Below are positions 317-19,954 of a stretch of DNA of 33,085 nt, one piece after another. The stretch's first letter is position 1. Every line of letters starts with the position of its first letter. The notes under the pieces are model-generated. The model had not been told where the DNA came from and searched no databases. It saw only the letters and a program-made list of their open reading frames with translations. Source of the stretch: Nevskia sp. (GTDB lineage: Bacteria; Pseudomonadota; Gammaproteobacteria; Nevskiales; Nevskiaceae); assembly GCF_023266035.1 (NCBI RefSeq), contig NZ_JAHFRY010000034.1:1-33085 (forward strand), in the 5' to 3' direction. Made by a program: the position numbers and the translations under genes.

Positions 317-1144
317 TCAGTCGAGCCGTACGAGAATGACGCTGGAGGCGTTGAACAGCGCGATCACCGGCTGACCGCGGCGCAGGCCGAGCGCTTCGAT
401 GCTGTCTTCGGTGACGACCGCGGCGAGCGTCTGTCCGCCCGGCAGTTCGAGCACCACTTCGGCGCTGACCGCGCCACGCTTGATGCGGCGGATCACGCCT
501 TCCAGCCGGTTTGCCGCCGAGCAGGCCAGCGGCGTGGCAGTGACGGCGGCGAGCATGATCCACGGCGCCTTGATCAGCGCAGTCAGCGGCGTGCCGCGTT
601 TGAGTTGCAGCAGTTTGGTGCTCTCGCGGGTGATCGTCGCGACGATCCGGCCACCGCCGCTCAGTTCGAGACTGATCTGATCGTTGACCGCGCCGGTCTG
701 GATTTCGACGACTCGTCCCGCCAGCTGATTGCGGGCACTGCTGAGCATCGTCAGCCGGCCGAGCACCGGCAGATCGCGGCTGGCGTTAGCGTGCTCGCGT
801 TCGATGCGCGCAACGAGCTGGTTCTGTTCGGTGCGCAGCTTTTCGTACAGCGCCAACAGCTCGTGACCGCGTTCGGTCAGCTGGGTGCCGCCGCCGCGTT
901 TGCCACCGGCGACGCGATGGACCAGCGCTTCATCAGCGCCGTTGTTCAGCGCATCGATCGCATCCCAGGCGCCCTTGTAGCTCATGCCCACCGCTTTCGC
1001 GGCCTGCAGGATCGAGCCGGTTGCGGCGATCGCCTGCAGCAGCTCGAAGCGTCGGCGACCGGACGGCGAAGCGCCCAGGGTCTGCAGCAGCAGGCTCGAT
1101 GCGTTCAAGGCTTCAGGCCGCTCAAGGAACGATCGGCCCGGCAA
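317..1144 (-). CDS. modE: ModE-type molybdate-responsive transcriptional regulator
   Basis: ModE is a cytoplasmic dimer that binds molybdate and then represses molybdate uptake genes and activates some molybdoenzyme genes. The 275-residue product has the complete family layout. A winged helix-turn-helix spans about residues 25-105 (AATGSILQAAKAVGMSYKGA and the GGKRGGGTQLT wing). Two TOBE/MOP modules follow (about 130-200 and 205-275). The ligand-site motifs SARNQ (136-140) and KAPW (192-195) match E. coli ModE. The listed start is a TTG at 1144 without a convincing Shine-Dalgarno; alignment to E. coli ModE also permits the TTG at 1108. At 1144 the gene overlaps the upstream beta-propeller gene by 23 bases; at 1108 there would be a short gap. 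No modABC transporter is in the window, so its regulon here is unknown; the receptor downstream is a natural candidate. Confidence 0.92.
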   Translation of the reverse strand: MPGRSFLERPEALNASSLLLQTLGASPSGRRRFELLQAIAATGSILQAAKAVGMSYKGAWDAIDALNNGADEALVHRVAGGKRGGGTQLTERGHELLALYEKLRTEQNQLVARIEREHANASRDLPVLGRLTMLSSARNQLAGRVVEIQTGAVNDQISLELSGGGRIVATITRESTKLLQLKRGTPLTALIKAPWIMLAAVTATPLACSAANRLEGVIRRIKRGAVSAEVVLELPGGQTLAAVVTEDSIEALGLRRGQPVIALFNASSVILVRLD

Positions 1145-2207
1145 GCGGCGATGCCGTGTCGTTGACGACCACTTTCAGCACCTGGAAATGGTCCGGCAGC
1201 AGCAGGCCTGTGGCGAAGGCGTGATTGGTGACCAGTGCATTGCCGAGGCCGTCGAAGGCCAGATTGGCCGGCGAATCGAATGGCGCCAGCGGCGTCAGCA
1301 ACGGGTTGCCGATGCGAGCCGCTTCACTGCCATTCGGGTTCAGGATCGAGATGCCGTTGGAGCCCGGCAGCGCCAGTACCACATAGAGCTTGCCGCTGGC
1401 ACCGAAAGCGATGCCGTCCGGCGCACCCGCGTAGTAGCGATGGAATTCGACGAGGTCGGTCTTTTTCGGGCTGGCGACCAGCGGCAAGCTGTAGACATGG
1501 CCGAGGCCGAGCAGGTCCAGAGTCACGGTGAAGAAAATGCGCTTGCGGTTCGGCGACAGACGCAGGCCGTTGACGCCGACATAAGCCGAGGCCAGTCGCG
1601 AATCCTGGAACCAGACCTGCGGCTGGCCGCCGCCGGCCGGCACTTTCCAGATCGTCGCCTGCAGCGAGTCGGTGACGTACAGGTTGCCGGCGTCGTCGAA
1701 GGCTAGATCGTTCGGCAGCGCCGGCAGATTCACCGGCGTTGGCGAACAGGGCTTGCCGCTGAGAATCGAGCAGGCACGCAGGTTCGGATAGGGCGGCGTG
1801 TAGTTGGCCTGCACCTCGGTCGCCAGATCGAAGCGCAAGGTACCCAGCTGGTTGTTCAGCACGTATAGACGACCGGCGCCATCGAAGGTCAGGCAGGAAT
1901 TGGCATGCTCGGCGCCGAACACGGTTTCGCCCTCGGTCTCCAGCGTTCGCAGCAGCTTGCCGTTGGCGAGGTCGTACTCGAACACTCGCGACGGCTTGCC
2001 GTTCAGCGCGGTACCGAGCGTGGCGGGGCCCGCTACGTAAACGCGATTGCCACGCACCGCAATGCCTTCGGGAAAGCCGTTTGGAATCGGCACCTGCGCA
2101 AATACCGAGACATCGCCGAACTTCGCGGCCTGTGCGGCCGGAATCGAGATCAGCGCGGCAGCAGCGAGAAAAACGGCTTGAGCAATACGGGCGAGACGGA
2201 TGGACAT
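1122..2207 (-). CDS. Secreted SMP-30/gluconolactonase-like beta-propeller protein
   Basis: A 361-residue protein with a signal peptide (residues 1-27, ending AAQA). Repeated blade-like segments follow: NGFPEGIAVRGNRVYVAG, LTFDGAGRLYVLNN, LPNDLAFDDAGNLYVTDS, GVNGLRLSPNRKRIFFT, APDGIAFGASGKLYVV and SPANLAFDGLGNALVTN. This NDLAFD.GNLYVTDS pattern is typical of six-bladed SMP-30/gluconolactonase/strictosidine-synthase-like propellers, which are often lactone hydrolases but include many proteins of unknown activity. Export implies a periplasmic location. I cannot assign a substrate. The ATG at 2207 has GGGAG about 7 bases upstream. The 3' end runs into or next to modE, so the two are probably co-transcribed. 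The fold is fairly certain; the enzyme function is not. Confidence 0.8.
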   Translation of the reverse strand: MSIRLARIAQAVFLAAAALISIPAAQAAKFGDVSVFAQVPIPNGFPEGIAVRGNRVYVAGPATLGTALNGKPSRVFEYDLANGKLLRTLETEGETVFGAEHANSCLTFDGAGRLYVLNNQLGTLRFDLATEVQANYTPPYPNLRACSILSGKPCSPTPVNLPALPNDLAFDDAGNLYVTDSLQATIWKVPAGGGQPQVWFQDSRLASAYVGVNGLRLSPNRKRIFFTVTLDLLGLGHVYSLPLVASPKKTDLVEFHRYYAGAPDGIAFGASGKLYVVLALPGSNGISILNPNGSEAARIGNPLLTPLAPFDSPANLAFDGLGNALVTNHAFATGLLLPDHFQVLKVVVNDTASPLAGPIVP

Positions 2208-2326
2208 GGCAAGGCTCCCTGGGCACCGGCGGTCATCGTGGCCGATCGAGTCGGCTTATCTATTGATCCGGCACACGGCCGGATACCGCAGTGTGCCCTT
2301 GCGACGCGTCTGACAGAAGTGGCCCT

Positions 2327-2959
2327 TCAAGCCTCGCCGTCGACCGGCCCGCCCGGCCGCGGCACCAGCGTTTTCAACATCAGCTTGAAGTAGGCGCGGA
2401 AGTCCTCGTCGACCGGAAACTGCTCCGGCGTATCGCGATGCACCTGCTGGTTGCCGATGAAAGTGGCGTAGGCGAACGTCGACCACAGCCGCGCATCGAG
2501 TTCGGAAAGACCCAGCGCCCGGTAGCACTGATTCAGGTAGTTCAGCCGATTCGCCGATACCCGCTTGACCACTTCGCCGACCGCTGGATCGTCGCTGGCC
2601 GCGGCCAGCGCCAGATACAGCCGGCCGGCCTTATAGCTGGAGTTGGCCTGCTTGAACAGACGGACGATGCGCTCGTAGGGATCAGTCATTTCCTCGACAC
2701 CGGCGCGGGCATCGATGGTTTCGTGCCGCTCCCAAAGCTTCAGCGCTTCGCGCAGCAGAGCTTCGCGGCTCGGGAAATGCCAGTAGAAGCTGCCCTTGGT
2801 GACGCCGAGCCGGCGCGCCAACGGCTCCACCGCCACGGCATCGAGCCCGCCGGTGGCCAGCGCATCGAGCGCCGCCTCGGCCCAGGCTTCGACACTGAGG
2901 CTGGACTTCACGGCATCGCTGCCGCGTGCGCCCGGCGGTTTCTGATTCGACATCGGCAT
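2327..2959 (-). CDS. TetR/AcrR-family transcriptional regulator
   Basis: A 210-residue protein with the TetR N-terminal helix-turn-helix at about residues 22-70. It begins WAEAALDALATGGLDAVAVE and continues with LARRLGVTKGSFYWHFPSRE, the hallmark recognition-helix sequence of the family. The rest is a helical ligand/dimer domain with no recognisable ligand signature. A second ATG two codons later (2953) is an equally possible start. These regulators usually repress themselves and a neighbouring gene until a small molecule binds. A strong palindrome lies about 20-50 bases upstream of the start, in the divergent gap with the DUF4124 gene, and is the likely operator. The downstream neighbour is the beta-propeller gene, 119 bases away, so control of that gene is possible but not shown. 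Confidence 0.9.
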   Translation of the reverse strand: MPMSNQKPPGARGSDAVKSSLSVEAWAEAALDALATGGLDAVAVEPLARRLGVTKGSFYWHFPSREALLREALKLWERHETIDARAGVEEMTDPYERIVRLFKQANSSYKAGRLYLALAAASDDPAVGEVVKRVSANRLNYLNQCYRALGLSELDARLWSTFAYATFIGNQQVHRDTPEQFPVDEDFRAYFKLMLKTLVPRPGGPVDGEA

Positions 2960-2974
2960 CTAAATTCGCTCATC

Positions 2975-3006
2975 CCGTACGTTGACGTATGGAAACGACT
3001 GTACGG
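2975..3006. promoter_or_regulatory. Nested palindrome, probable TetR-family operator
   Basis: An inner inverted repeat TACGT-TG-ACGTA (2978-2989) is perfect. An outer pair, CCGTAC (2975-2980) and GTACGG (3001-3006), encloses it. It lies 16-47 bases upstream of the TetR start and about 130 bases upstream of the divergent DUF4124 gene. Position and symmetry fit autoregulation by the TetR protein; binding itself is inferred. Confidence 0.5.
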
Positions 3007-3102
3007 ACCCCGGCATACGGGGGCAAGCCCCGTCCGGTTCGGCATCCGCTCATCGATACGACTGGCGCTGTTCCGGCAAATCGAGCCGTCTGGCGTCGTT
3101 GA

Positions 3103-3131
3103 TTGTTGTGCCACCGGCGCTTGCCTAGACT
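3103..3131 (+). promoter_or_regulatory. Possible sigma70-type promoter of the DUF4124 gene
   Basis: TTGTTG (3103-3108) and TAGACT (3126-3131) are separated by 17 bases. The -10 ends 6 bases before the ATG at 3138, so a transcript from it would be leaderless or nearly so. There is no good Shine-Dalgarno before the ATG, which agrees with that reading but proves little. Confidence 0.3.
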
Positions 3132-3137
3132 CAGGCG

Positions 3138-3575
3138 ATGAACATGCTTCGAATCTTGCTGCTGGCACTATGCCTGCCGATGACTGCCGCTGCGGCCGAG
3201 GTCTACGGCTGGGTCGACGCCAATGGCGTCAAGCAGTTTTCCCAGCAGGCGCCAGCGAAGGGCGTGCCGTTCAAGCGCATCGAAGTGGCCGAGCCCAGCG
3301 CCAATCCAGCGCCGGCCTCCAACAGCAACACAACCAAGAAAACCGATTCAACCTTGGGCGGCGGGCCGAAAACGCGCGATGCCGGCCTGAAACTCAAGGC
3401 CGAAACCCTGGAGCGCTGTGCCAAGGCGCGCGAGCGCATCAGCTTCCTGGAAGAGAAAACCGCGCGCCGCCTGTTCAAGACCGGCCCGGATGGCCAGCCG
3501 GCGCGTTATACCGACGAAGACTTCAAGACTGAACTGGACCAGGCGCGCGACGTCGAAGCCGCCAACTGCACCTGA
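3138..3575 (+). CDS. DUF4124-domain exported protein
   Basis: A 145-residue protein. Residues 1-20 are a signal peptide ending TAAAA. The DUF4124 motif EVYGWVDANGVKQFSQQAP follows directly, a short beta-rich module common at the N-terminus of small gammaproteobacterial periplasmic proteins of unknown role. Residues 52-75 are a low-complexity Asn/Ser/Thr/Lys linker. The rest is a charged, probably helical segment with two cysteines (the C of ERCAK and the penultimate residue) that could form a disulfide in the periplasm. An ATG two codons downstream (3144) is an alternative start. It ends 10 bases from the convergent PspC-domain gene. The function is unknown; only family membership and export can be supported. 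Confidence 0.82.
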   Translation: MNMLRILLLALCLPMTAAAAEVYGWVDANGVKQFSQQAPAKGVPFKRIEVAEPSANPAPASNSNTTKKTDSTLGGGPKTRDAGLKLKAETLERCAKARERISFLEEKTARRLFKTGPDGQPARYTDEDFKTELDQARDVEAANCT

Positions 3576-3585
3576 AGCCCTGCGT

Positions 3586-3837
3586 TCAGCCGGAATGGCC
3601 GGAACCGCTGGCGCCCGGCTGAGGCGATCCTCTCGACACGTTGAGCTGCCGCGGCATCACGAACCACAGAATCAGGTAGGCGAAGATTCCGGGGAACGCC
3701 ACCGAGCAGATCGAGATCAGCACGTACAGCACGCGCACCGAAGTCGGCGTCCAGCCCAGGAAGTCGGCGATGCCGCCGCAGACACCGGCAATCATCTTGT
3801 GCTCGTCGGAGCGCCATAGGCGCGTGCTGTCGTTCAT
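3586..3837 (-). CDS. PspC-domain small membrane protein
   Basis: An 83-residue protein made almost entirely of a PspC domain: LWRSDEHKMIAGVCGGIADF, then the GWTPTSVRVLYVL helix and a hydrophobic membrane segment at about residues 36-62 (ending LILWFVMP). PspC in enterobacteria is an inner-membrane part of the phage-shock envelope-stress response; stand-alone short PspC proteins are widespread and mostly uncharacterised. The start at 3837 is chosen because an AGGAGGG Shine-Dalgarno lies about 10 bases upstream. An in-frame upstream ATG at 3897 would add 20 hydrophilic residues and put that ribosome site inside the gene. No pspA, pspB or pspF neighbour is present, so a role in a Psp circuit is not supported by context. 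Confidence 0.88.
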   Translation of the reverse strand: MNDSTRLWRSDEHKMIAGVCGGIADFLGWTPTSVRVLYVLISICSVAFPGIFAYLILWFVMPRQLNVSRGSPQPGASGSGHSG

Positions 3838-3929
3838 GGTCAAAAGTCCCTCCTGTTGCCGGCTCTGGAAAGATTCCGGCGGATGCCCGGTTTTCAAGCG
3901 CAGCGAGTGTGCCTGAACCGAATGCCCAC

Positions 3930-3958
3930 AAAAAAGCCCGGCAATGCCGGGCTTTTTT
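3930..3958. terminator. Bidirectional rho-independent terminator
   Basis: A perfect 8-bp stem, AGCCCGGC (3935-3942) and GCCGGGCT (3946-3953), with a 3-base loop, is flanked by six A's on the left and six T's on the right. It therefore has a U-tract in either direction. It ends the FKBP transcript 16 bases after that gene's stop and separates it from the PspC gene. Confidence 0.93.
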
Positions 3959-3974
3959 GCAACAGCCTGAAGAA

Positions 3975-4742
3975 TTACTTCTTCGGCTTCGGCGCTTCGG
4001 CGGCCGGGGCATCGCCCTTTTCGACCTTGATCAGCTCGACTTCGAAGATCAGCGTCTCGTTCGGGCCGATCTTGCCGCCCGCACCGCGATCACCGTAGGC
4101 CAGCGCGGCCGGGATGTAGAACTTCGACTTGCCGCCGACCTTCATCAACTGCAGGCCTTCGGTCCAGCCCGGAATCACGTTGGCGAGCGGGAAGGTCACC
4201 GACTGGCCGCGGTCGTACGAGCTGTCGAAGGTTTCGCCGTTCAGCAGCGTGCCCTTGTAGTTGACTTCAACCTTGTCCGAGGCGGTCGGCGCGGCGCCGG
4301 TGCCTTCGGTCAGCGTTTCGTACTGCAGGCCCGAAGCGGTGGTCTTGACGCCTTCCTTCTTGCCGTTCTCGGCGAGGAACGCAGCGCCCTTGCCGGTCGC
4401 TTCTTCAGCAGCCTTGGCGCGCTCGGCAACCTGCTTTTCCTGGATCTTCTTGGAAACCGAATTCTTGATCTCTTCGCGAGCCTTGTCGTCCATGCGCGGC
4501 TCCTTGCCGCCGGACACTTCGTCGAGGCCCTTCTTCAGCGAGGCGATATCCACTTCGTCCTTGACGGTGGCCAGCGAACGGCCGAGGTCGACGCCGATCG
4601 AGTAGCCGAACTTCTGGGCATCGGTCGCGAGGTCGGCATCGCCGGCGGCGGCCGGGGCAGCGCCGTCGGTGGCCGGCTTCGAGCAGGCAACGATGAAGGC
4701 GGCGCTGGCAATCAGCGTCAGCGCACGGGAATGCTTGAACAT
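3975..4742 (-). CDS. FKBP-type peptidyl-prolyl isomerase, FkpA/Mip-like lipoprotein
   Basis: A 255-residue periplasmic folding factor that isomerises X-Pro bonds. The N-terminus carries a lipoprotein signal with lipobox IVAC, so Cys20 is the likely lipidated residue. Residues 38-130 are the helical FKBP_N dimerisation domain (FGYSIGVDLGRSL, and the charged helix KIQEKQVAERAKAAEEA). Residues 142-242 are the FKBP_C catalytic domain (VEVNYKGTLLNGETFDSSYD, FPLANVIPGWTEGLQLM, YIPAALAYGDRG, LIFEVELI). The tail is Pro/Ala/Lys-rich. Length and order match FkpA and Mip. AGGA lies 8 bases before the ATG. A -10 TATAAT overlaps the end of plsB upstream, and a strong terminator follows the stop, so this is a single-gene transcript. 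Confidence 0.93.
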   Translation of the reverse strand: MFKHSRALTLIASAAFIVACSKPATDGAAPAAAGDADLATDAQKFGYSIGVDLGRSLATVKDEVDIASLKKGLDEVSGGKEPRMDDKAREEIKNSVSKKIQEKQVAERAKAAEEATGKGAAFLAENGKKEGVKTTASGLQYETLTEGTGAAPTASDKVEVNYKGTLLNGETFDSSYDRGQSVTFPLANVIPGWTEGLQLMKVGGKSKFYIPAALAYGDRGAGGKIGPNETLIFEVELIKVEKGDAPAAEAPKPKK

Positions 4743-4822
4743 GAGTTAAATCCTGTCAGGAAAGAGGTTTTGGAGAGCCCATAGGGGCGCTTTACAGCAT
4801 TCAGCGCCTGCGATGCGGCCGG

Positions 4823-4850
4823 ATTATAGCCCGGAGTCCGTTTCAGTCAT
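4823..4850 (-). promoter_or_regulatory. Probable promoter of the FKBP gene
   Basis: On the minus strand a perfect -10 TATAAT (4828-4823) covers the stop codon of plsB. ATGACT lies 16 bases upstream as a 4/6 match to the -35 box. The start of transcription would be about 75 bases before the FKBP ATG. Confidence 0.55.
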
Positions 4851-7427
4851 GACCGCTTCGGCAGGCCTGCCGGGGCTTGCAGCAGCGCCTCCGGCAGACT
4901 CGCTCGAGGGCGGTTCCGCGTTGCTCGGACCACGGCGGCGGGCCAGAAGTTGCAGCAGGGTCTGCCGGGTTTCATCGCTGAGCAGTTCTACCGAGCGTTC
5001 CGCGATGCGATCGCAGCGGGCATCGAGGATCAATACGCCGCCAGCGCCGGTGGTGACCACGCCGACTTCGATCAAGGTATCGAGGTAGGCGGCGAACAAG
5101 CCTTTGTCGAAGAACTCCGGCGCTTCACGGCCGGTCAGCACCGCCATGCGTTCGGCCAGCAGGCGGCAGTCGCTCTCGAATTGTTCACGCCTTACCGGCC
5201 CGCCGCGCTTCTTCTCTTCGGTCAGCAGCAGCACCGCCATTGCCTGGCGTTCCAGCGTTTCGCCGAGCACGCGGCCCAGCGCCGCGAAGCCGGAATAGGC
5301 CGGGTCGCCGACTTCCGGCCGGCGCAGGCGGCCATCGGCATCGCGCAGCAGCAGGCCGGTGGCGAGCATCCGCTCCAGGTAATTGCGGGCCACCGGCTCG
5401 CAGTCGGACACCGGCCAGGGCAGCAGGAACTCGTTGCGCAGGAACGGATACAGCGCGCGGCAGCCGGTCAGCACCAGTTCTTCGCTCAAGATGCCGCGCG
5501 TGCGGAAGAACGCCGCGATCAGCGCCGGCACCGCGAACAGGTGCTGGATGTTGTTGCGGTTGTAGGTCATCAGCACGCCATCGCGGCCGACCGCCAGCAG
5601 CACGTCGCCCCAGGGATGTTCGACTCTCTGAATGCGCGCGATCGGCGCTGCCCAGGCAAGGATCGATTTCGGATCGGCGTTCGGCAACATCAGCTCCGCG
5701 CCGCCCGGCCAGGGCTTGAGCAGATCGATGAAGTGGGCGATCTGGTCGACCAGTTCATCCTCGGTGGCAGCACGCCGCGGCGAGGCCAGCAGCGCGCAGG
5801 CGACCAGGCCGACCGGACTGGCAATCGACGCCGCCTGAATGCGCCGCATGTGCTCGAAGGCCAGGCCACGCACCCATTTCGAGAAGCCGTCCGGACGAGT
5901 GTTCGGATCCGCCGCCATCGCCTCGCGCCAGCCCGGCAGGTTGGCGTCGGCGTGGTCCTGCAGGATGGTCGGCTCGCCGAAGTTCACATAGGCGCGGCCG
6001 TAGCTCTTGCCGAGGATCTTGGTCGCTTTCAGCAGGCCTTCGGCGGATTCGCGCTGCTTCTGGCCGCTCTTCAGTTCCTTGAAGAAGCTGCCGACCTCGA
6101 AAACCTTGTCGTAGCCGAGGAACACCGGCACCAGCGCCACCTTGCGCGATTTCGAGCGCAGGCCGGATTCGGCGACCATCGCCAGCAGCCCGGTCTTCGG
6201 CGGCAGCAGCCGGCCGGTGCGCGAGCGCCCGCCTTCGGGGAAGAATTCGATCGAGTAACCACGGCGGATCAGCGAATCGACATAGGCGCGGAACACCGCC
6301 GTGTAGACCGGATCACCGGAAAACTTGCGGCGCATGTAGAAGGCGCCGCACTTGCGCAGCAGGCCGCCGATCGGCCAGAAATTCAGGTTGATGCCGGCGG
6401 CGATATGCGGTGGCACCAGGCCGGCGGTGTACAGCACGTAGGACAGCAGCAGGTAGTCGGCATGGCTGCGATGCGAGGGCATGAAGACGATTTCGTGCGA
6501 CTGCGCGAGCGCCCGCACCCGCTCCAGGCCCTGCACTTCCACGCCCTTGAAGACGCGGTTCCAGATTGCCGTCAGCACCCGCTCCATGACCCGGATCGTC
6601 GCCGCCGAATAATCGGCCGCCACTTCCTCGGCGCACTTGCGGGCGTGGAGCGAAGCCTTTTCCAGCGAGCTGTTGTCGCCGCGAGCACGGGCGATGATTG
6701 CGGCCCGCACGCCTTCGGACTCGAGCACGCCCTTGAGCACGACACCACGACGCAGCAGGGTCGGCCCGAGCGCGGCGGTACGCGCGCGCAGGAAGTGGAA
6801 ATGCAGCGCGCGCGGCAGCGCACGAGCCAGCTTCTGCACGACCTGTTCGCTGTTCTGGCCCGAACTGGCACCGGCATTGATCAGGAATTCGCGATAGCCG
6901 AGCGGCTTGCCGAAGTTGGCCAGCACGTTGCGGCCGTTGGCCGCGCCGATCAGGATCTTGCGCAGGCGCCCGGCCTGCACGCTGTCGGCAAAGATCAGCT
7001 TGAACAGCGAGGTTTCCTGGCCCGGATCGCGTCCCCAGAAGATCGATACCGGCACGATCTGGATGTCGTAATCGGCACGATCGGCAGCAACCGCCATCAT
7101 CCGCGCCAGTTCGCTGTCGCCGGTGCGATTGCGGGCGAAGGTTTCCAGCAGCGCCGGCAGATAGACCAGGCCGGCACGCTCCGGCGTCGGCAGCGAATGG
7201 CTGATCCGTGCCGGCAGCGGCAGGCCCAGTTCGGTGCAGATGCGCTGCAGCGCGAACAGATCGATCCAGCTGCGCTGCGGCAGCACGTAGACCACCGGCT
7301 TGGCCGGATCGAGACCCAGCGAGCCCGGCATTGCTTCCGGGGCCACGCGGTACTTCATCAGATGGATCAGCGGCTTCGACAGCCAGCGCGCAATCAGATA
7401 GCTGAACGCGATCAGCGCGGCGTTCAA
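4824..7427 (-). CDS. plsB: Glycerol-3-phosphate 1-O-acyltransferase
   Basis: PlsB acylates sn-glycerol-3-phosphate at position 1 with acyl-CoA or acyl-ACP, the first step of phospholipid synthesis, at the inner membrane. With the start chosen here it has 867 residues (E. coli 807). The acyltransferase motifs are intact: HRSHADYLLLS, with His319 and Asp324 as the HX4D catalytic pair; GAFYMRRKF; the FFPEGGRSRTGRLLPPKTG substrate-binding block at about 396-410; and VALVPVFLGYD. The C-terminal 35 residues are a Pro/Ser/Ala-rich extension. The frame is open to a TTG at 7580, but a TATAAT at 7541-7536 places the transcript start inside that extension. The TTG at 7427 has GGAG 7 bases upstream and begins just before the family's N-terminal membrane-associated helix, so I use it. 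The gene diverges from the peptide transporter. Confidence 0.93.
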   Translation of the reverse strand: MNAALIAFSYLIARWLSKPLIHLMKYRVAPEAMPGSLGLDPAKPVVYVLPQRSWIDLFALQRICTELGLPLPARISHSLPTPERAGLVYLPALLETFARNRTGDSELARMMAVAADRADYDIQIVPVSIFWGRDPGQETSLFKLIFADSVQAGRLRKILIGAANGRNVLANFGKPLGYREFLINAGASSGQNSEQVVQKLARALPRALHFHFLRARTAALGPTLLRRGVVLKGVLESEGVRAAIIARARGDNSSLEKASLHARKCAEEVAADYSAATIRVMERVLTAIWNRVFKGVEVQGLERVRALAQSHEIVFMPSHRSHADYLLLSYVLYTAGLVPPHIAAGINLNFWPIGGLLRKCGAFYMRRKFSGDPVYTAVFRAYVDSLIRRGYSIEFFPEGGRSRTGRLLPPKTGLLAMVAESGLRSKSRKVALVPVFLGYDKVFEVGSFFKELKSGQKQRESAEGLLKATKILGKSYGRAYVNFGEPTILQDHADANLPGWREAMAADPNTRPDGFSKWVRGLAFEHMRRIQAASIASPVGLVACALLASPRRAATEDELVDQIAHFIDLLKPWPGGAELMLPNADPKSILAWAAPIARIQRVEHPWGDVLLAVGRDGVLMTYNRNNIQHLFAVPALIAAFFRTRGILSEELVLTGCRALYPFLRNEFLLPWPVSDCEPVARNYLERMLATGLLLRDADGRLRRPEVGDPAYSGFAALGRVLGETLERQAMAVLLLTEEKKRGGPVRREQFESDCRLLAERMAVLTGREAPEFFDKGLFAAYLDTLIEVGVVTTGAGGVLILDARCDRIAERSVELLSDETRQTLLQLLARRRGPSNAEPPSSESAGGAAASPGRPAEAVMTETDSGL

Positions 7428-13957: not shown

Positions 13958-14896
13958 CTACCTCGGCCAGTACGCGCTGATCGCCGCGATGCCCTGCGCA
14001 CCCGCGCGGCGGGCCTCGAACAGATCGCCGGGCGACAAGCCACCCAGTGCATAGACCGGCAAGCCGACCACGCCGCGCCGCTCGGCAAAACCAGCCCAGC
14101 CGACGCCCTCTGCGCCCGGATGAGTCGCTGTCGGGAACACCGGGCCGAGCACGGCGAAATCAGCGCCAACGATCTGTGCAATGCGCAGCTGCTCAGCGCT
14201 GTGCACCGAAGCGCCGAACCACAGCTCGGGCGCAATCGGCCTTGTGCCATAGCGCGCCAGCGTGGCACCCGTTGCATGCCAGCCATCGGCACCGATCGCC
14301 GCAACCATTGCCGGATCACGGTCGAGGATCAGCTTCAGCCCGGCCGCCTGGCAGGCGGGCAGCAAGGTCGTCGCCAGCACGGCATAGGCGCGCTCATCCA
14401 GCCCCGGCAGCCGCAGCCGCAGCAGCGCGCCGTGCGGCAGCCGGGTGAGCTGGGTCAGCAGCTCGATCAAGGTCGCGTCCGGGCGGGTGAACACATAGTG
14501 CTGCGGCAGGCGCAGCGCAGTGACGATCGGCGTCACCGTCGGCAGCAGATCCAGATCGTCCAGCTGATCGAGCCGGCGCCAGGCGAAGGCCTGCTGCTCG
14601 CGGGACTGTGGCTCGCCGTCCCAGCCATCGACCCGCCAGGTGTCGAGCAGCACCTGGCGATCGCTGTAGTCGTGACGGAAACGCAGCAGCGGCCGGGCGG
14701 AGTTGATGTCGACGCCCAGTTCCTCGTGCAGTTCGCGCTTCAGCGCGTCGAGCGCGGTTTCGCCTGACTCGATCTTGCCACCGGGAAATTCCCAAAGCCC
14801 GGCGGCGATCTTGCCGACCGGACGCTGGGCGATCAGCAGCCGGCCGTCACCATCGATCAACACGCCGCAGGCGACAGCAATCAGCGGTGTCGTCAT
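13958..14896 (-). CDS. MutT-type Nudix hydrolase fused to a ThiE/TenI-like domain
   Basis: A 312-residue two-domain protein. Residues 1-130 are a MutT-type Nudix domain with a complete Nudix box (Gly40, Glu46, Arg54-Glu55, Glu58-Glu59, Gly61) after GLWEFPGGKIESGE. This is consistent with 8-oxo-dGTP hydrolysis that prevents A:T to C:G errors. Residues 150-312 fold as a thiamine-phosphate-synthase-like barrel: GADGWHATG, FGASVHSAEQLRIA, GADFAVLGPVFPTATHPGA and PVYALGG. In true ThiE the fourth strand motif is HLGQxD; here it is HATGAT, so ThiE catalysis is doubtful. The same fusion is well known beside secA/argJ in Pseudomonas. The Nudix role is likely; the second domain's role is unknown. Confidence 0.92.
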   Translation of the reverse strand: MTTPLIAVACGVLIDGDGRLLIAQRPVGKIAAGLWEFPGGKIESGETALDALKRELHEELGVDINSARPLLRFRHDYSDRQVLLDTWRVDGWDGEPQSREQQAFAWRRLDQLDDLDLLPTVTPIVTALRLPQHYVFTRPDATLIELLTQLTRLPHGALLRLRLPGLDERAYAVLATTLLPACQAAGLKLILDRDPAMVAAIGADGWHATGATLARYGTRPIAPELWFGASVHSAEQLRIAQIVGADFAVLGPVFPTATHPGAEGVGWAGFAERRGVVGLPVYALGGLSPGDLFEARRAGAQGIAAISAYWPR

Positions 14897-15030
14897 CGGC
14901 AGCTCGCCAGCCGCTGCGGCCTGCAGTCACAATCGCGCCGGCACTCTTCGACGCGCCTCATGAGCAGGCGCGCGCAGCTCGTCATCGAATTCATCTCGTC
15001 ATCCACATCCCGTTCAGGAGATTCACCGGC

Positions 15031-15740
<710 letters not shown>

Positions 15741-15741
<1 letters not shown>

Positions 15742-15827
15742 AAGCAGTGGTCAGTGACTTGTGATCAGTGGCCCGTAAGGCATCGCGTCGCCTTTACTGG
15801 CCACTAGCCACTGATCACGAATCACTG
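15741..15827. repeat. Intergenic hairpin repeat, copy 1 (downstream of the hydrolase and argJ)
   Basis: It is built from variants of the short unit AGTGGTCAGTG. Its arms, 15752-15772 and 15807-15827, are inverted repeats matching at 19 of 21 positions, with a perfect 12-bp core GTGATCAGTGGC (15761-15772) / GCCACTGATCAC (15807-15818). The first 18 bases, GAAGCAGTGGTCAGTGAC, recur inverted in copy 2. It fills the gap between the two convergent genes and could also act as their shared terminator. Confidence 0.8.
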
Positions 15828-15832
15828 CGTCA

Positions 15833-17053
15833 TCACGTTCGATATTCAGCGTTGATCTTGACGTAGTCGTAGCTGAAGTCGCAGGTCCAGACCCGGGTCT
15901 TCGCGGTGCCGCGACCGAGGCCAACTCTGATCGTGAACTCCGGCTTGGCGACCACGGCCGAGCCGAGTTCCTCGCGGTACGAGGGATGCGGTTCGCCGCC
16001 GTCGAGCAGGCGCACGTCGTCCAGCCAGAGATCGACCTTGCCCGGATCGAGGCCGGGTACGCCGGCCTTGCCGATCGCCATCGCCAGCCGGCCCCAGTTC
16101 GCGTCGCCGGCGAACATCGCGGTCTTGACCAGCGGCGAATGGGCGATCGAATACGCCACCAGCCGCGCCTCGTCGACCGTGCCGCCGCCTTCGACATCGA
16201 CGGTGATGAAGCGCGTCGCGCCTTCGCCATCGCGGACGATCGCCTGGGCGAGTTCGATGCAGACCTCGGTGACCGCTGCCGCGATCTGCGGGTAATCGGC
16301 GTGGCCGGTATCGACATCGCTGCTGCCGACCTGCGCCGTCGCGAACAGCACACAGGAATCGTTGGTCGACGTATCACCGTCGACGGTCGCGCTGTTGAAC
16401 GAGGCTGCGACCGCGTGCTGGATCAAGCTCTGCGTCGCTTCGGCCGTCAGCCGCGCATCGGTGCCGATATAGGCCAGCAGCGTCGCCATGTTCGGATAGA
16501 TCATGCCGACGCCCTTGGCGATACCGGTGACCGTGACCGGCCCCTGCGAGGTCGCGACGGTGCGGGTCGCGCCTTTCGGGATCGTGTCGGTGGTCATGAT
16601 CGTGCGGGCGGCAGCGTTCCAGCCGTCGGCCTGTAGATTCGCGGCGGCCTTCGGGATCGCCTCGATCATCCGCGACACCGGCAGTTGCTGGCCGATCACA
16701 CCGGTCGAGAACGGCAGCACCTGGGACGGCTCGCAACCGATCGCGGCAGCCACCGCAGCAGCGGTTTCACGCGCATTGGCGAGCCCTTGAGTACCGGTCG
16801 CGGCATTGGCGTTGCCCGCATTGATCAGCAGCGCACGGATGTTCTGACTGACCGCCAGCCGCTCGCGGCAGACCTGCACCGGAGCCGCGCAGAACGCGTT
16901 CTGCGTGAACATGCCGGCGGCGCGAGTGCCCGGCGCCAGTTCGATGATCAGCAGATCCTGCCGGCCCGGCTTCTTGATCGCCGCTTCGGCGGAACCCAGG
17001 CGGGCACCGGCGATCGGCGTCAGCGGTCCCGGTTCATTCAGATTGACGGCCAT
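15833..17053 (-). CDS. argJ: Bifunctional ornithine acetyltransferase / N-acetylglutamate synthase
   Basis: ArgJ transfers the acetyl group from N-acetylornithine to glutamate in the cyclic arginine pathway; bifunctional forms also use acetyl-CoA. The 406-residue precursor contains the self-cleavage site SATVDGDTSTND, with Thr223 as the expected new N-terminal nucleophile. Also present are STGVIGQQLP, TTDTIPKGATR, IAKGVGMIYPNMATLLAYIGTDA-type sequence (about 178-200) and ANWGRLAMAIGKAG near the end. The ATG at 17053 is followed by MAVNL, normal for the family. It has no Shine-Dalgarno: repeat copy 2 occupies the leader up to within a few bases of the start. Whether the enzyme is mono- or bifunctional cannot be read directly. 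Confidence 0.96.
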   Translation of the reverse strand: MAVNLNEPGPLTPIAGARLGSAEAAIKKPGRQDLLIIELAPGTRAAGMFTQNAFCAAPVQVCRERLAVSQNIRALLINAGNANAATGTQGLANARETAAAVAAAIGCEPSQVLPFSTGVIGQQLPVSRMIEAIPKAAANLQADGWNAAARTIMTTDTIPKGATRTVATSQGPVTVTGIAKGVGMIYPNMATLLAYIGTDARLTAEATQSLIQHAVAASFNSATVDGDTSTNDSCVLFATAQVGSSDVDTGHADYPQIAAAVTEVCIELAQAIVRDGEGATRFITVDVEGGGTVDEARLVAYSIAHSPLVKTAMFAGDANWGRLAMAIGKAGVPGLDPGKVDLWLDDVRLLDGGEPHPSYREELGSAVVAKPEFTIRVGLGRGTAKTRVWTCDFSYDYVKINAEYRT

Positions 17054-17057
17054 GGTG

Positions 17058-17137
17058 GAAGCAGTGGCTAGTGGCTGGTGGTTAGTGGTCGGTCAAAAGC
17101 AAAGCGACGTCTGAAACTGGTCACTGACCACTGCTTC
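17058..17137. repeat. Intergenic hairpin repeat, copy 2 (between secA and argJ)
   Basis: Built from the same GTGGYYAGTGG-type units as copy 1. The outer arms GAAGCAGTGG (17058-17067) and CCACTGCTTC (17128-17137) pair perfectly and extend to 22-base arms matching at 17 positions. Bases 17120-17137 are the exact reverse complement of 15741-15758 in copy 1. It ends one base before the secA stop and begins 4 bases from the argJ start codon, so it makes up nearly the whole secA-argJ gap. Confidence 0.8.
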
Positions 17138-17138
17138 T

Positions 17139-19889
17139 TCAGACCAGCGCCCCGTGGCACTGCTTGAACTTCTTGCCCGAGCCGCAGGGACAAGGATCGT
17201 TGCGGCCGACTTTCGGCATGTCGCGGACGAAGGCTTCCGGACGGTCGACGGAAGTCGGCGCGCTCAGGCTTCGGCCTTCGCCGATGGGTTCGACCGCCAC
17301 GACATCCGGCTGCTCGATCACCGACTGGGCATCGGCATGCTGGAACTCCATCGGCGGCGCGGCGGCGCGGCGCGCTTCTTCAAGCGCATGCACCTCGTCC
17401 TCGGTGAGGATCTGGATGCGGGCGAGGCGCGACACCACTTCATGTTTGAAGCGCGCCAGCATGTCGTTGAACATGGTGAACGCTTCGCGCTTGTACTCCT
17501 GCTTCGGGTCCTTCTGCGCATAACCGCGCAGATGGATGCCGAGCCGCAGGTAGTCCATCGCCGCGAGATGCTCGCGCCAGAAGGTATCGAGCACGCGCAG
17601 CAGGGTTTCGCGCTCGAAAGACTCCAGCACGGTGCCGCCGATCTTCGCCTTCTTGTCGGCGTAGGTCGTCGACAGAATCTCGCCGATCCGTTCCTTGATC
17701 TTGCGGTCGTCGAGCTGCGGGTCTTCCTCGGCCCACTGGCGGATCGGCAGCATGGTGCCGAAATCCTTGCGCAGCGCTTCTTCCAGCGCTTCGAGGTTCC
17801 ACATCTCCTCGGGGCTCTGCGGCGGCACGTGCACGGCGACCACGGCGGTGACCACGTCGGCGCGGATGTCGTCGATCATCGGCGTCACGACCGCGGCGCC
17901 CATCAGCTCGTCGCGCAGCTCGTAGATCGCCTTGCGCTGATCGTTGGCGACGTTGTCGTACTCGAGCAGGTTCTTGCGGATGTCGAAATTGTGCGCTTCC
18001 ACCTTGCGCTGCGCGGTCTCGATCGAGCGCGTCACCATCTTCGCTTCCAGCGCTTCGCCTTCCTGCATGCCGAGCCGCTGCAGTAGGCCACGCATCGACG
18101 GCGGCGCGAAGATACGCATCAGCGTGTCATCGAGCGACAGATAGAAACGGGTGGCACCCGGATCGCCCTGACGGCCGGAACGGCCACGCAGCTGGTTGTC
18201 GATGCGGCGGGATTCGTGGCGCTCGGAACCGATCACATACAGACCGCCGCTGGCGACGACCGCCGCATGGCGCTCCTTCCACGCCGCCTTGGCGGCTTCC
18301 CGGGTGGCCAGGTCGTCTTCCGGAATCGCATGCAGTTCAGCTTCCAGCGAACCGCCGAGCACGATGTCGGTACCGCGGCCGGCCATGTTGGTGGCGATGG
18401 TCACCGCACCGGGGCGCCCGGCCTGGGCGACGATCTCGGCTTCGCGCTCGTGCTGCTTGGCATTGAGCACTTCGTGGACGATACCCTTCTGGGTCAGCAG
18501 GTTCGCCAGCAGCTCGGAAGTCTCGATGCTCGCGGTGCCGACCAGGATCGGTTGGCGCTTGGCATGAACCTCTTCGATGTCCTTGATCACCGCATCGAAC
18601 TTGCCCTTGGCGCTGATGTAGATCAGATCGCCGCGGTCATCGCGCACCATCGCCCGATTGGTCGGGATGACGATGACTTCGAGGTTGTAGATGTTCTGGA
18701 ATTCGAAGGCTTCGGTATCGGCGGTGCCGGTCATGCCGGACAGCTTCGAATAGAGCCTGAAATAGTTCTGGAAGGTGATCGAGGCCAGCGTCTGGCTTTC
18801 CTGCTGGATCGCCACGCCTTCCTTGGCTTCGACGGCCTGATGCAGGCCGTCCGACCAGCGCCGGCCGGACATCATGCGGCCGGTGAACTCATCGATGATG
18901 ATCACCTGATTGCCGCGGACGATGTACTCGACGTCCTTCTTGTACAGCTGGTGCGCGCGCAGCAACGCGTTCAGATGATGAACGAGCACGATACGGCTGG
19001 CGTCGTACAGGCTTTCGTCCTCACCGAGCAGGCCTGCTTCACGCAGCAGGTCTTCCATGCGCTCGTGTCCGAGTTCGGACAGATGCACCTGCTTGCCCTT
19101 CTCGTCGACGTGGAAATCGCCTTCCAGATCTTCCTCGGTCTTCTGCCGGGTCAGCTTCGGGATCAGCACATTGAGCTTGCGCCACAGCTCGGGATCATCG
19201 TCGGTCGGGCCGGAGATGATCAGCGGCGTGCGCGCTTCGTCGATCAGGATCGAATCGACTTCGTCGATCACCGCGTAGTTCAGGCCGCGCTGCACTTTCT
19301 CGTCGAGCGAGAAAGCCATGTTGTCGCGCAGGTAGTCGAAGCCGAATTCGTTGTTCTGGCCGTAGGTGATATCGGCCTGGTAGGCAGCGCGCTTCTCTTC
19401 ATTCTCCTGACCGGAGACGACGACGCCGACGCTCATGCCGAGGAAGCGGAAGATGCGGCCCATCCACTCGGAATCGCGCCGGGCGAGATAGTCGTTGACG
19501 GTGACCACGTGCACGCCCTTGCCGCTCAGTGCATTGAGATAGGTCGGCAAGGTCGCGACCAGGGTCTTGCCTTCGCCGGTGCGCATTTCGGCGATCTTGC
19601 CTTCGTGCAGCGCGGCGCCGCCGATCAGCTGCACATCGAAGTGCCGCATGTTCATCACGCGGCGGCCGGCTTCGCGGACCACGGCAAAGGCGTCGGCACG
19701 CAGCTGATCGAGCGTTTCGCCTTTCGCCAGCCGTTCGCGCAGCACGACGGTCTGCTGGCTCAGCTCTTCATCGGACATCGCCTGGTACTTCGGCTCCAGC
19801 GCGTTGACGGCGCTGACGACGCTGGACAGACGACTGACGTTGCGTTGATTGCGGCTGCCGAAGATGCGCGCCAGAAAATTGTTGAACAT
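17139..19889 (-). CDS. secA: Preprotein translocase ATPase SecA
   Basis: SecA is the ATP-driven motor that pushes preproteins through SecYEG. The 916-residue product (E. coli 901) is complete. It has Walker A MRTGEGKT (102-109), DEAD-type Walker [17 protein letters not shown], the [20 protein letters not shown] block of the preprotein cross-linking region, [11 protein letters not shown] and [11 protein letters not shown] of the second nucleotide domain, a long helical scaffold, an Ala/Pro/Glu linker, and the zinc-binding tail [13 protein letters not shown], which binds SecB. The ATG at 19889 ([12 protein letters not shown]) is the family start; the open frame runs 20 codons further but the extra residues are not conserved. 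secM is not present; instead an inverted repeat occupies the leader. Confidence 0.98.
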
Positions 19890-19948
19890 GGATTCCGTAG
19901 TCTGGAAACGGCACGAGCCTGGACCCGTCCGGGGCGGACAGGGCAGCA

Positions 19949-19954
19949 ATTATG
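19949..19954 (-). promoter_or_regulatory. Possible -10 box of the secA promoter
   Basis: CATAAT on the minus strand, 60 bases before the secA ATG, directly downstream of the inverted repeat 19961-20013. The -35 position shows only a weak match. Confidence 0.35.

Follow-up and report, generated by a model that had tools for sequence, protein, structure and literature searches.

Tandem 7-bp units in intergenic regions have been described in several bacterial groups. In heterocystous cyanobacteria, short tandemly repeated repetitive (STRR) heptamers are short tandem intergenic units with sequences other than AGTGRYY, the unit considered here. The heptameric repeats of Xanthomonas (GGGAATC) and Nostoc (GGGGA(C/T)T) are likewise dispersed and intergenic (Rehm et al. 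2015, PMC4692102). In the parts of that paper that deal with Xanthomonas, close convergent (inverted) heptad pairs are counted in 70 cases in X. campestris pv. campestris (Xcc) and 75 in X. axonopodis pv. citri (Xac), the preference for four units is linked to G-quadruplexes, and heptamer slippage is discussed. Our analysis concerns an element of similar appearance, built from AGTGRYY heptads, of which two copies, termed A and B, flank argJ in a Nevskia sp. The window, meaning the whole stretch of DNA analysed, comprises 33,085 nucleotides of contig NZ_JAHFRY010000034.1.

We interpret the element as a dispersed, non-coding inverted heptad repeat whose arms would be sites read by sequence, and whose copies would enter a genome by deletion-insertion at intergenic spacers. 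We regard this interpretation, taken as a whole, as about evenly balanced between right and wrong. The element sits at gene boundaries, stands in place of the spacer at the sites compared, is inherited at orthologous places, and conserves its core and termini without covariation between the paired arms.

A dispersed family of inverted heptad arrays

A BLAST search with element A and its flanks against its own genome (G000 below; the genus set comprises 18 genomes, G000 included) yielded 14 places at E<0.001, counting element A itself; at E<=10 the number rises to 68, many of them weak or short. The pattern AGTGRYYAGTGRYYAGTG, with up to two mismatches, gave 88+91 matches in this genome versus 32+30 for the reversed control, among the matches listed, and a longer, stricter pattern gave 54+55 versus 3+4. 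The stretches fetched from the genome hold 35 clusters, to which unfetched places may add, and 31 of these parse as two-armed. The stricter pattern matches 14 of 85 genomes of the order. Within the genus, abundance varies strongly: G000 (54+55), G024 (85+81) and G014 (23+26) are rich in elements, and each other genome has 16 matches or fewer in all. The suggestion of a dispersed intergenic repeat family, made from the window alone, is thus supported.

A typical element opens with GAAGC-(AGTGRYY)4-AGT, continues into a loop of 2-68 nt and closes with the mirror image; written out in full, the scaffold is GAAGC-(AGTGRYY)4-AGT-loop-ACT-(RRYCACT)4-GCTTC. GAAGC precedes 17 of the 31 left arms and 17 of the 31 right arms. 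Four to five counted units are present in 24/31 left arms and 29/31 right arms, the fifth being mostly a partial AGT. Judged by eye on printed copies, the loops are unlike each other.

Such arrays could arise and grow in place by polymerase slippage, with the mirror arm produced by chance snap-back. The heptads are tandem, arrays elsewhere reach 38 units among the matches listed, and slippage is among the subjects raised for the Xanthomonas heptamers. However, adjacent units are not unusually alike (28 RYY matches in 215 versus 32.1 expected), nor are the two arms of one element copies of each other (18 in 127 versus 19.2 expected; partial fifth units are counted in both comparisons). In addition, arm length is nearly fixed, the termini are conserved, and the spacer is replaced rather than expanded. 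This explanation appears quite improbable.

Position at gene boundaries

With codon usage in argJ, secA and the neighbouring hydrolase gene as the guide to coding frames, 50 of the 62 edges of the two-armed elements fall at -3 to +4 nt relative to a start or stop codon. A further 10 edges have the stop codon of the gene inside the element, and only two edges are elsewhere (+14 and -57). Edges next to genes with negative coding scores are unsure, namely both edges of the element at locus L059 and one edge each of two elements at L063. The neighbouring genes are in tandem at 24 elements and convergent at seven, with no divergent case, and all 31 elements have the 3' end of a gene on at least one side. 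Cruder frames based on GC content at third positions, in which some genes are miscalled, place 43 of 60 edges at -2 to +4, then 10 and 7 in the other two classes, with three start/start cases. A new copy may be tolerated where it adjoins at least one stop codon, and could supply a stop codon itself.

Replacement of the spacer at orthologous sites

Seventeen of the 35 sites were compared with G013, G027 and G024. An element is present in G024 at 11 of the 13 sites found there, in G013 at 1 of 17 (site 14, decayed), and in G027 at 3 of 17 (sites 14, 1 and 10). Fourteen of the 16 element-free G013 sites, the exceptions being sites 1 and 9, show flank homology that stops no more than 5 nt short of either element edge, and G013 carries 18-131 nt of other sequence there, among them a small number of coding bases. 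Of 47 orthologous places, 45 have both flanks together on the stretch that was fetched; one exception is a G027 contig end, and the other is a G024 place without the right flank.

Outgroups provide a further comparison, for which 6 of 10 sites qualified by having both anchors as well as a spacer in the usable length range. The G013 and G027 spacers resemble outgroup spacers of the same site (mean 25.0 versus 17.4 permuted, p 0.0012, 6 sites), a comparison that is favoured by coding bases at the spacer edges. The G000 elements do not resemble them (p 0.94, 6 sites). Because the flanks align to the element edges, and because the G013 and G027 spacers match those of outgroups and the G000 elements do not, a short spacer is most likely ancestral at these sites, its place having been taken by the element. 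A new copy would enter by deletion-insertion, with the old spacer lost in the event. At site 6 the end of the upstream gene also appears, in our reading, to have been replaced, with a TAG within the array terminating that gene. The G024 copy at this site (L257) has a duplicated left arm, with two GAAGC/AAAGC-headed arrays in series.

A model in which the loop is the old spacer, with arms added around it, was rejected. Loops score 14.0 against the spacer of the same site versus 12.6 off-diagonal (15 sites, permutation p 0.047), and the top score by far belongs to site 1, where G027 itself carries an element; positive controls gave 33.2 versus 16.1 and 50.4 versus 14.1. A weak spacer remnant may persist in the loop at single sites, for example site 5. 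An integron attC site or gene cassette was also rejected, on the basis that gene order is not shuffled and that flanks stay together at the 45 of 47 places; attC core motifs were not scanned.

Conservation of sequence without covariation

Conservation was measured at 11 sites where G000 and G024 both carry the element. The GTG core is identical at 265/272 positions (97.4%) and the termini at 98/105 (93.3%), versus 381/428 (89.0%) for the 20-bp flanks, 220/273 (80.6%) for RYY and 317/402 (78.9%) for the loop; heptad position 1 has 74.7% identity. Transitions account for 46 of the 53 changes in RYY and for 44 of the 85 in the loop. The G024 copies, which were located via their flanks and not via the pattern, show the same rule in their composition.

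By contrast, base-pair covariation between the arms was not detected. In-register identity at positions 5/6/7 is 0.60/0.36/0.50, versus 0.62/0.49/0.49 expected, such that the arms agree at position 6 less often than expected. G.U pairs between arms (52) are matched by A.C pairs (53). The sense fold is more stable than the antisense fold in 7 of 24 cases, and stems differ little in stability from arms with resampled RYY (z +0.20). For these pairing tests orientations were entered by hand (24 tandem, 5 convergent, 2 undecided). Because a selected stem should covary and these arms do not, the arms are probably sites recognised by their sequence, by a putative factor, rather than a selected hairpin. 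Each arm would then be a row of four predicted binding sites, 7 bp apart and mirror-imaged.

These data bear on the possibility that the element acts as an intercistronic RNA hairpin, in which an mRNA stem-loop terminates transcription, shields the upstream gene's 3' end, or joins a stop codon to the next start. The strong stems predicted for A and B on both strands are in keeping with this role, as is the presence of a gene 3' end beside 31 of 31 elements with none between divergent genes, although four of the edges have weak coding scores. However, a functional stem of this kind is difficult to reconcile with arms that do not covary, with G.U pairs no commoner than A.C, with a better sense fold in 7/24 only, and with stems no better than RYY-resampled ones. 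Moreover, site A, between convergent genes, is as tight as tandem site B. We consider an RNA hairpin possible but rather unlikely. An intrinsic terminator in particular was rejected for A and B, the only elements examined in this respect, since the region 15600-17300 has one terminator-like site (17118-17130) versus 0.8 in shuffles. Rfam 15 yielded no match over the gathering score and two below threshold (25.4 versus 93.3 bits and 22.5 versus 40 bits).

The argJ locus

The sequence-only reading had pointed to an 18-bp perfect inverted match around argJ. The match is exact (15741-15758 is the reverse complement of 17120-17137) and extends to 19 nt (15740-15758 / 17120-17138). Allowing up to three mismatches, the 18-mer occurs three times in the window versus 0.04 expected from shuffles, and the 7-bp units (AGTG + RYY) give 12 matches versus 0.28, with one of the 12 away from argJ at 1220. 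Each of the two elements has one arm of heptads on the + strand and the other on the - strand. Both had been predicted to form hairpins, and both do fold far below shuffles (z, two strands: -5.0/-5.6 for A and -7.0/-3.6 for B). An arm match of 19/21 at site A was reproduced (21 nt, 90%); that of 17/22 at site B was not, with 16 nt at 88% found instead. As previously noted, the elements fit between genes: A fills the gap between the convergent stop codons of the hydrolase gene (15739-15741) and argJ (15833-15835), and B fills the one bounded by the start of argJ (17053) and the stop of secA (17139-17141). The identities of ArgJ, SecA and a protein of the dienelactone-hydrolase type at the locus are confirmed by Pfam (Table 1). 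The right arm of B is longer in G027 and G024 than in G000.

Table 1. Elements and genes at the argJ locus, with occupancy of each element site in congeners
Feature	Positions	Strand	Description	Filled	Empty
Element A, whole	15741..15831	.	GAAGC + left arm + loop + right arm + GCGTC; first G common to the TAG stop of the + strand hydrolase gene, 1 base lies between its end and the argJ stop (TCA 15833-15835, - strand)	G000, G024	G013, G027
Element A, left arm	15746..15773	+	4 heptads: AGTGGTC AGTGACT TGTGATC AGTGGCC		
Element A, right arm	15799..15826	-	4 heptads, read on - strand: AGTGATT CGTGATC AGTGGCT AGTGGCC		
Element B, whole	17058..17137	.	GAAGC...GCTTC, lying between argJ start codon and secA stop codon	G000, G027, G024	G013, G019, G020, G015, G018, G021
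Element B, left arm	17063..17090	+	4 heptads: AGTGGCT AGTGGCT GGTGGTT AGTGGTC		
Element B, right arm	17119..17132	-	Shortened: 2 full heptads (AGTGGTC AGTGACC) + AGT remnant		
argJ (PF01960)	15833..17053	-	Flanked by elements A and B		
secA (SecA domains, SEC-C motif)	17139..19949	-	Upstream of argJ		
Dienelactone-hydrolase-type gene	14887..15741	+	Convergent with argJ		

It had further been proposed that recombination between A and B could invert argJ, or that the pair marks a cassette boundary. The 19-bp perfect inverted match is the type of sequence that could permit such a switch. However, argJ is present in all 18 genus genomes and is collinear with secA in 17 of them, own genome included, while the contig of the eighteenth, G028, stops within argJ. 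Because order and direction are the same in these 17 genomes, inversion is not supported. A cassette boundary fares no better: flanks remain together at nearly all orthologous places, as noted above, and A and B are filled independently, G027 having B without A. The shared 18 bp are also not special, because 26 of the 1,891 pairs among the 62 parsed arms are identical over their first 18 nt. An argJ inversion or cassette switch is almost certainly wrong. The match is a family resemblance, and the pairing of elements around argJ is incidental, without joint function.

Other repeats in the same slots

Other 7-bp words, partly arranged as inverted pairs, are used by other members of the genus. 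GTGAGGC is found in G019 (41+32), G018 (22+27), G025 (30+23) and G028 (4+11); GGGAATC in G016 (96+67) and G028 (14+15), with no array match in G000; and GGAAACT in G016 (30+24) and G022 (16+15). Reversed controls gave zero matches, except for two with GTGAGGC in G025. Some of these arrays occupy the sites described above. Site B holds a GGGAATC-like hairpin in G016 and a GGAAACT-like hairpin in G022, and in G019 site 15 is occupied by GTGAGGC arrays and site 6 by a GGAAACT-like hairpin. Among the GGAAACT loci printed, L435 and L437 have a similar scaffold, with AAGC before the array and AGTAAAA within. At site 2, inverted arrays of ~9-bp units (ACGCAGAGA / CACGCCAAG-like) lie in the same intergenic slot in two species (L271 in G019 and L254 in G024).

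Repetitive extragenic palindromic (REP) sequences carry a GTAG or GTGG head. At G027 sites 1 and 10, a sequence with GTAG heads that resembles REPINs (paired, inverted REPs) has entered. This GTAGGTCGGGC-type sequence (L237 and L246) lies inside the heptad element or replaces part of it. Two different kinds of short repeat therefore occupy the same slots.

Arrays in other phyla and in phage contigs

At least 118 stretches of public genomes carry AGTGRYY arrays. Among the matches listed, these represent Planctomycetes, Acidobacteria, Chloroflexi, Clostridia, Selenomonadales, Bacteroidetes and Cyanobacteria, and some arrays are two-armed while others are one-armed or very long. On a Saprospiraceae contig (L119:5569-5707), an AGTGRYY hairpin contains, within its loop, a second hairpin of ACAGTCR-unit heptads.

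A scan of IMG/VR found at least 120 further stretches with arrays. By our own count from mechanical lists of open reading frames (ORFs) of at least 80 aa, arrays occupy 9 of 12 ORF gaps on contig L319, 7/9 on L377, 3/4 on L334 and 5/9 on L366, with fewer on L353; L366 looks related to L377 by its ORF sizes. The array-rich stretch of L319 spans 343-6447. Because a protein of L319 matches tail tape measure proteins and proteins of L334 match portal, Mu F-like and head maturation protease proteins, both are, judged by these matches, contigs of uncultivated tailed phages. One protein of L353 was scanned and gave no match. BLAST searches with element A against cultured phages and plasmids, and with one L319 array against cultured phages, found no match, although low-complexity filtering may hide matches in both.

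Among the matches listed, 130 of 305 arms in IMG/VR lie at the end or start of a long ORF (-4 to +6 nt) or hold its stop codon, versus 10% of random positions in the same loci. For ORF 3' ends alone, the figure at -4 to +6 is 20% versus 1% for random positions (listed loci outside the genus). The GAAGC terminus was rejected as a mark of arrays across phyla, being present at 3 of 144 listed arms from other phyla and at 3 of 329 listed arms from viral contigs; in the genus it heads 31/60 arms in G000, 14/22 in G024 and 5/20 in G014.

The presence of arrays in phage contigs suggests horizontal spread, and the likeliest reader of the arms would be a trans-acting machinery that spreads the element in this way. 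More tentatively, bacteria and phages may share a trans-phylum "gene-edge" class of repeats, with a shared scaffold on which each genome arrays its own 7-bp word in mirror image. The whole untranslated gap would be swapped, with gene ends guiding the process directly or via selection; the word in a given slot would differ between congeners, and some phages would have arrays in most of their gaps. We think such a class possible, but short of probable.

Candidate movers and points against the interpretation

One way to move a short two-armed element in trans is provided by the REP-associated tyrosine (Y1) transposases, or RAYTs. The size of the Nevskia element, its extragenic seat and its two inverted arms would suit a REPIN-like sequence, and Y1_Tnp genes are found in the own genome and in 15 of the 18 genus genomes. 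A single Y1 (IS200-like) transposase gene, encoding 231 aa, lies on contig C162 of the own genome (L070:3231-3926, - strand). However, the arms, judged by reading, consist of tandemly arrayed 7-bp units, where a REPIN would have one palindromic REP at each end, and the repeat does not flank the Y1 gene. In addition, the REPIN-like sequence at the two G027 sites is distinct from the heptad element. A RAYT as the mover of a REPIN-like element thus seems very improbable. RAYTs and reverse transcriptases were both rejected as movers, because their presence is not linked to abundance in the 18 genomes. A miniature inverted-repeat transposable element that makes target-site duplications was likewise rejected: none of the 31 elements has as many as 2 matching nt at its exact edges, the best match within 4 nt averages 0.94 versus 1.30 permuted, and the spacer is lost. 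A non-autonomous mobile element, as suggested from the window, is plausible in view of presence and absence at orthologous sites, but no mover was found among the enzymes checked, target-site duplications are absent, and the old spacer has been lost.

Several observations weigh against the interpretation given at the outset. No mover or binding protein was identified among the Y1 transposases and reverse transcriptases checked. The 9 kb fetched around the Y1 gene hold no heptad element, and Y1_Tnp is distributed without relation to element abundance, element-rich G014 (84% complete) having no match and element-poor G019 having seven. Reverse transcriptases do not track abundance either, given that G024 (89% complete) is rich in elements and has none. 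The interpretation does not account for how the spacer is removed, and insertion followed by fast trimming under selection may be an alternative to replacement. Conservation of purine or pyrimidine class is also expected of a tolerant stem, even though covariation is absent.

The history of the sites is also not simple. Informative sites in the flanks give a weak signal (77 for G000+G027, 55 for G000+G024 and 41 for G000+G013), and an argJ-secA tree places G000 with G027 (support 94; 49 for the placement of G013/G024). Element sharing, unlike the flanks, groups G000 with G024, and exchange between lineages may be involved. Finally, the seat is looser outside the genus. In other phyla, 49 of 126 listed arms lie at the end or start of a long ORF (-4 to +6 nt) or hold its stop, versus 10% at random. 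Two arrays of L334 (5373-5439 and 5621-5768) are inside a 796-aa portal ORF, such that arrays in this phage contig are not strictly intergenic, and one L319 array is inside an ORF.

Comparison with known systems

Heptameric repeats have so far been noted piecemeal, in Xanthomonas, Nostoc and Beggiatoaceae, and their mechanism is unsettled. The close relatives used here supply before-and-after pairs, in which a spacer at a gene boundary is replaced and a GTG core is conserved above the level of the flanks without pairing covariation. These pairs shift the question from quadruplex versus hairpin to the identity of the reader and the way in which spacers are swapped. Array-rich phage contigs may point to the way in which the element spreads and could supply candidate proteins. 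A search for AGTGRYY array strings, confined to open-access literature, returned unrelated papers and no description of the element.

Among inverted repeats of other kinds, REPINs with their RAYT transposases are, in the sections of the source that concern them (PMC3116915), short inverted doublets outside genes, for which movement in trans is assumed. They differ from the Nevskia element in that its arms are heptad arrays and the Y1 gene is unlinked and does not track abundance. The start-associated sequences (SAS) and extended SAS (ESAS) of cluster K mycobacteriophages (PMC3203893) are also phage repeats at gene starts, and the imperfect 17-bp inverted repeats of ESAS, with a variable spacer, are a further likeness. 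Their sequence is a different one, and heptad arrays are absent from the passages that describe them. The TAACTGA direct repeats of marine Beggiatoaceae (MacGregor 2015, PMC4679880) share the placement of heptads near start codons. As far as the relevant parts of that paper go, canonical ribosome-binding sites are rare there, and the repeats resemble the present arrays in their patchy occurrence across phyla and possible horizontal spread. In contrast to the Nevskia element, however, the role suggested for them is translational.

By its looks, the nearest known kind is the inverted heptameric repeats of Xanthomonas, although the word differs. As in the portions of PMC4692102 that describe those repeats, 7-bp units are dispersed and intergenic, occur as tandem intergenic arrays, favour four units and form inverted, convergent pairs. 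Both kinds are rare between divergent genes and lie near the neighbouring gene, and both are mostly kept at orthologous places with variable sequence and length. The G-rich GGGNATC unit suited to G-quadruplexes is replaced here by AGTGRYY. Because this consensus has no GGG tract, the similar preference for four units is hard to ascribe to G-quadruplexes in Nevskia. Relative to what those portions report, the Nevskia element is further distinguished by the fact that most of the copies found are two-armed with common termini, that the ancestral spacer is gone, and that constraint on the core versus RYY, without covariation, has been measured. It adds a new sequence family to a kind of repeat that is known but has no explanation so far, and provides new evidence on seat, spacer replacement and constraint.
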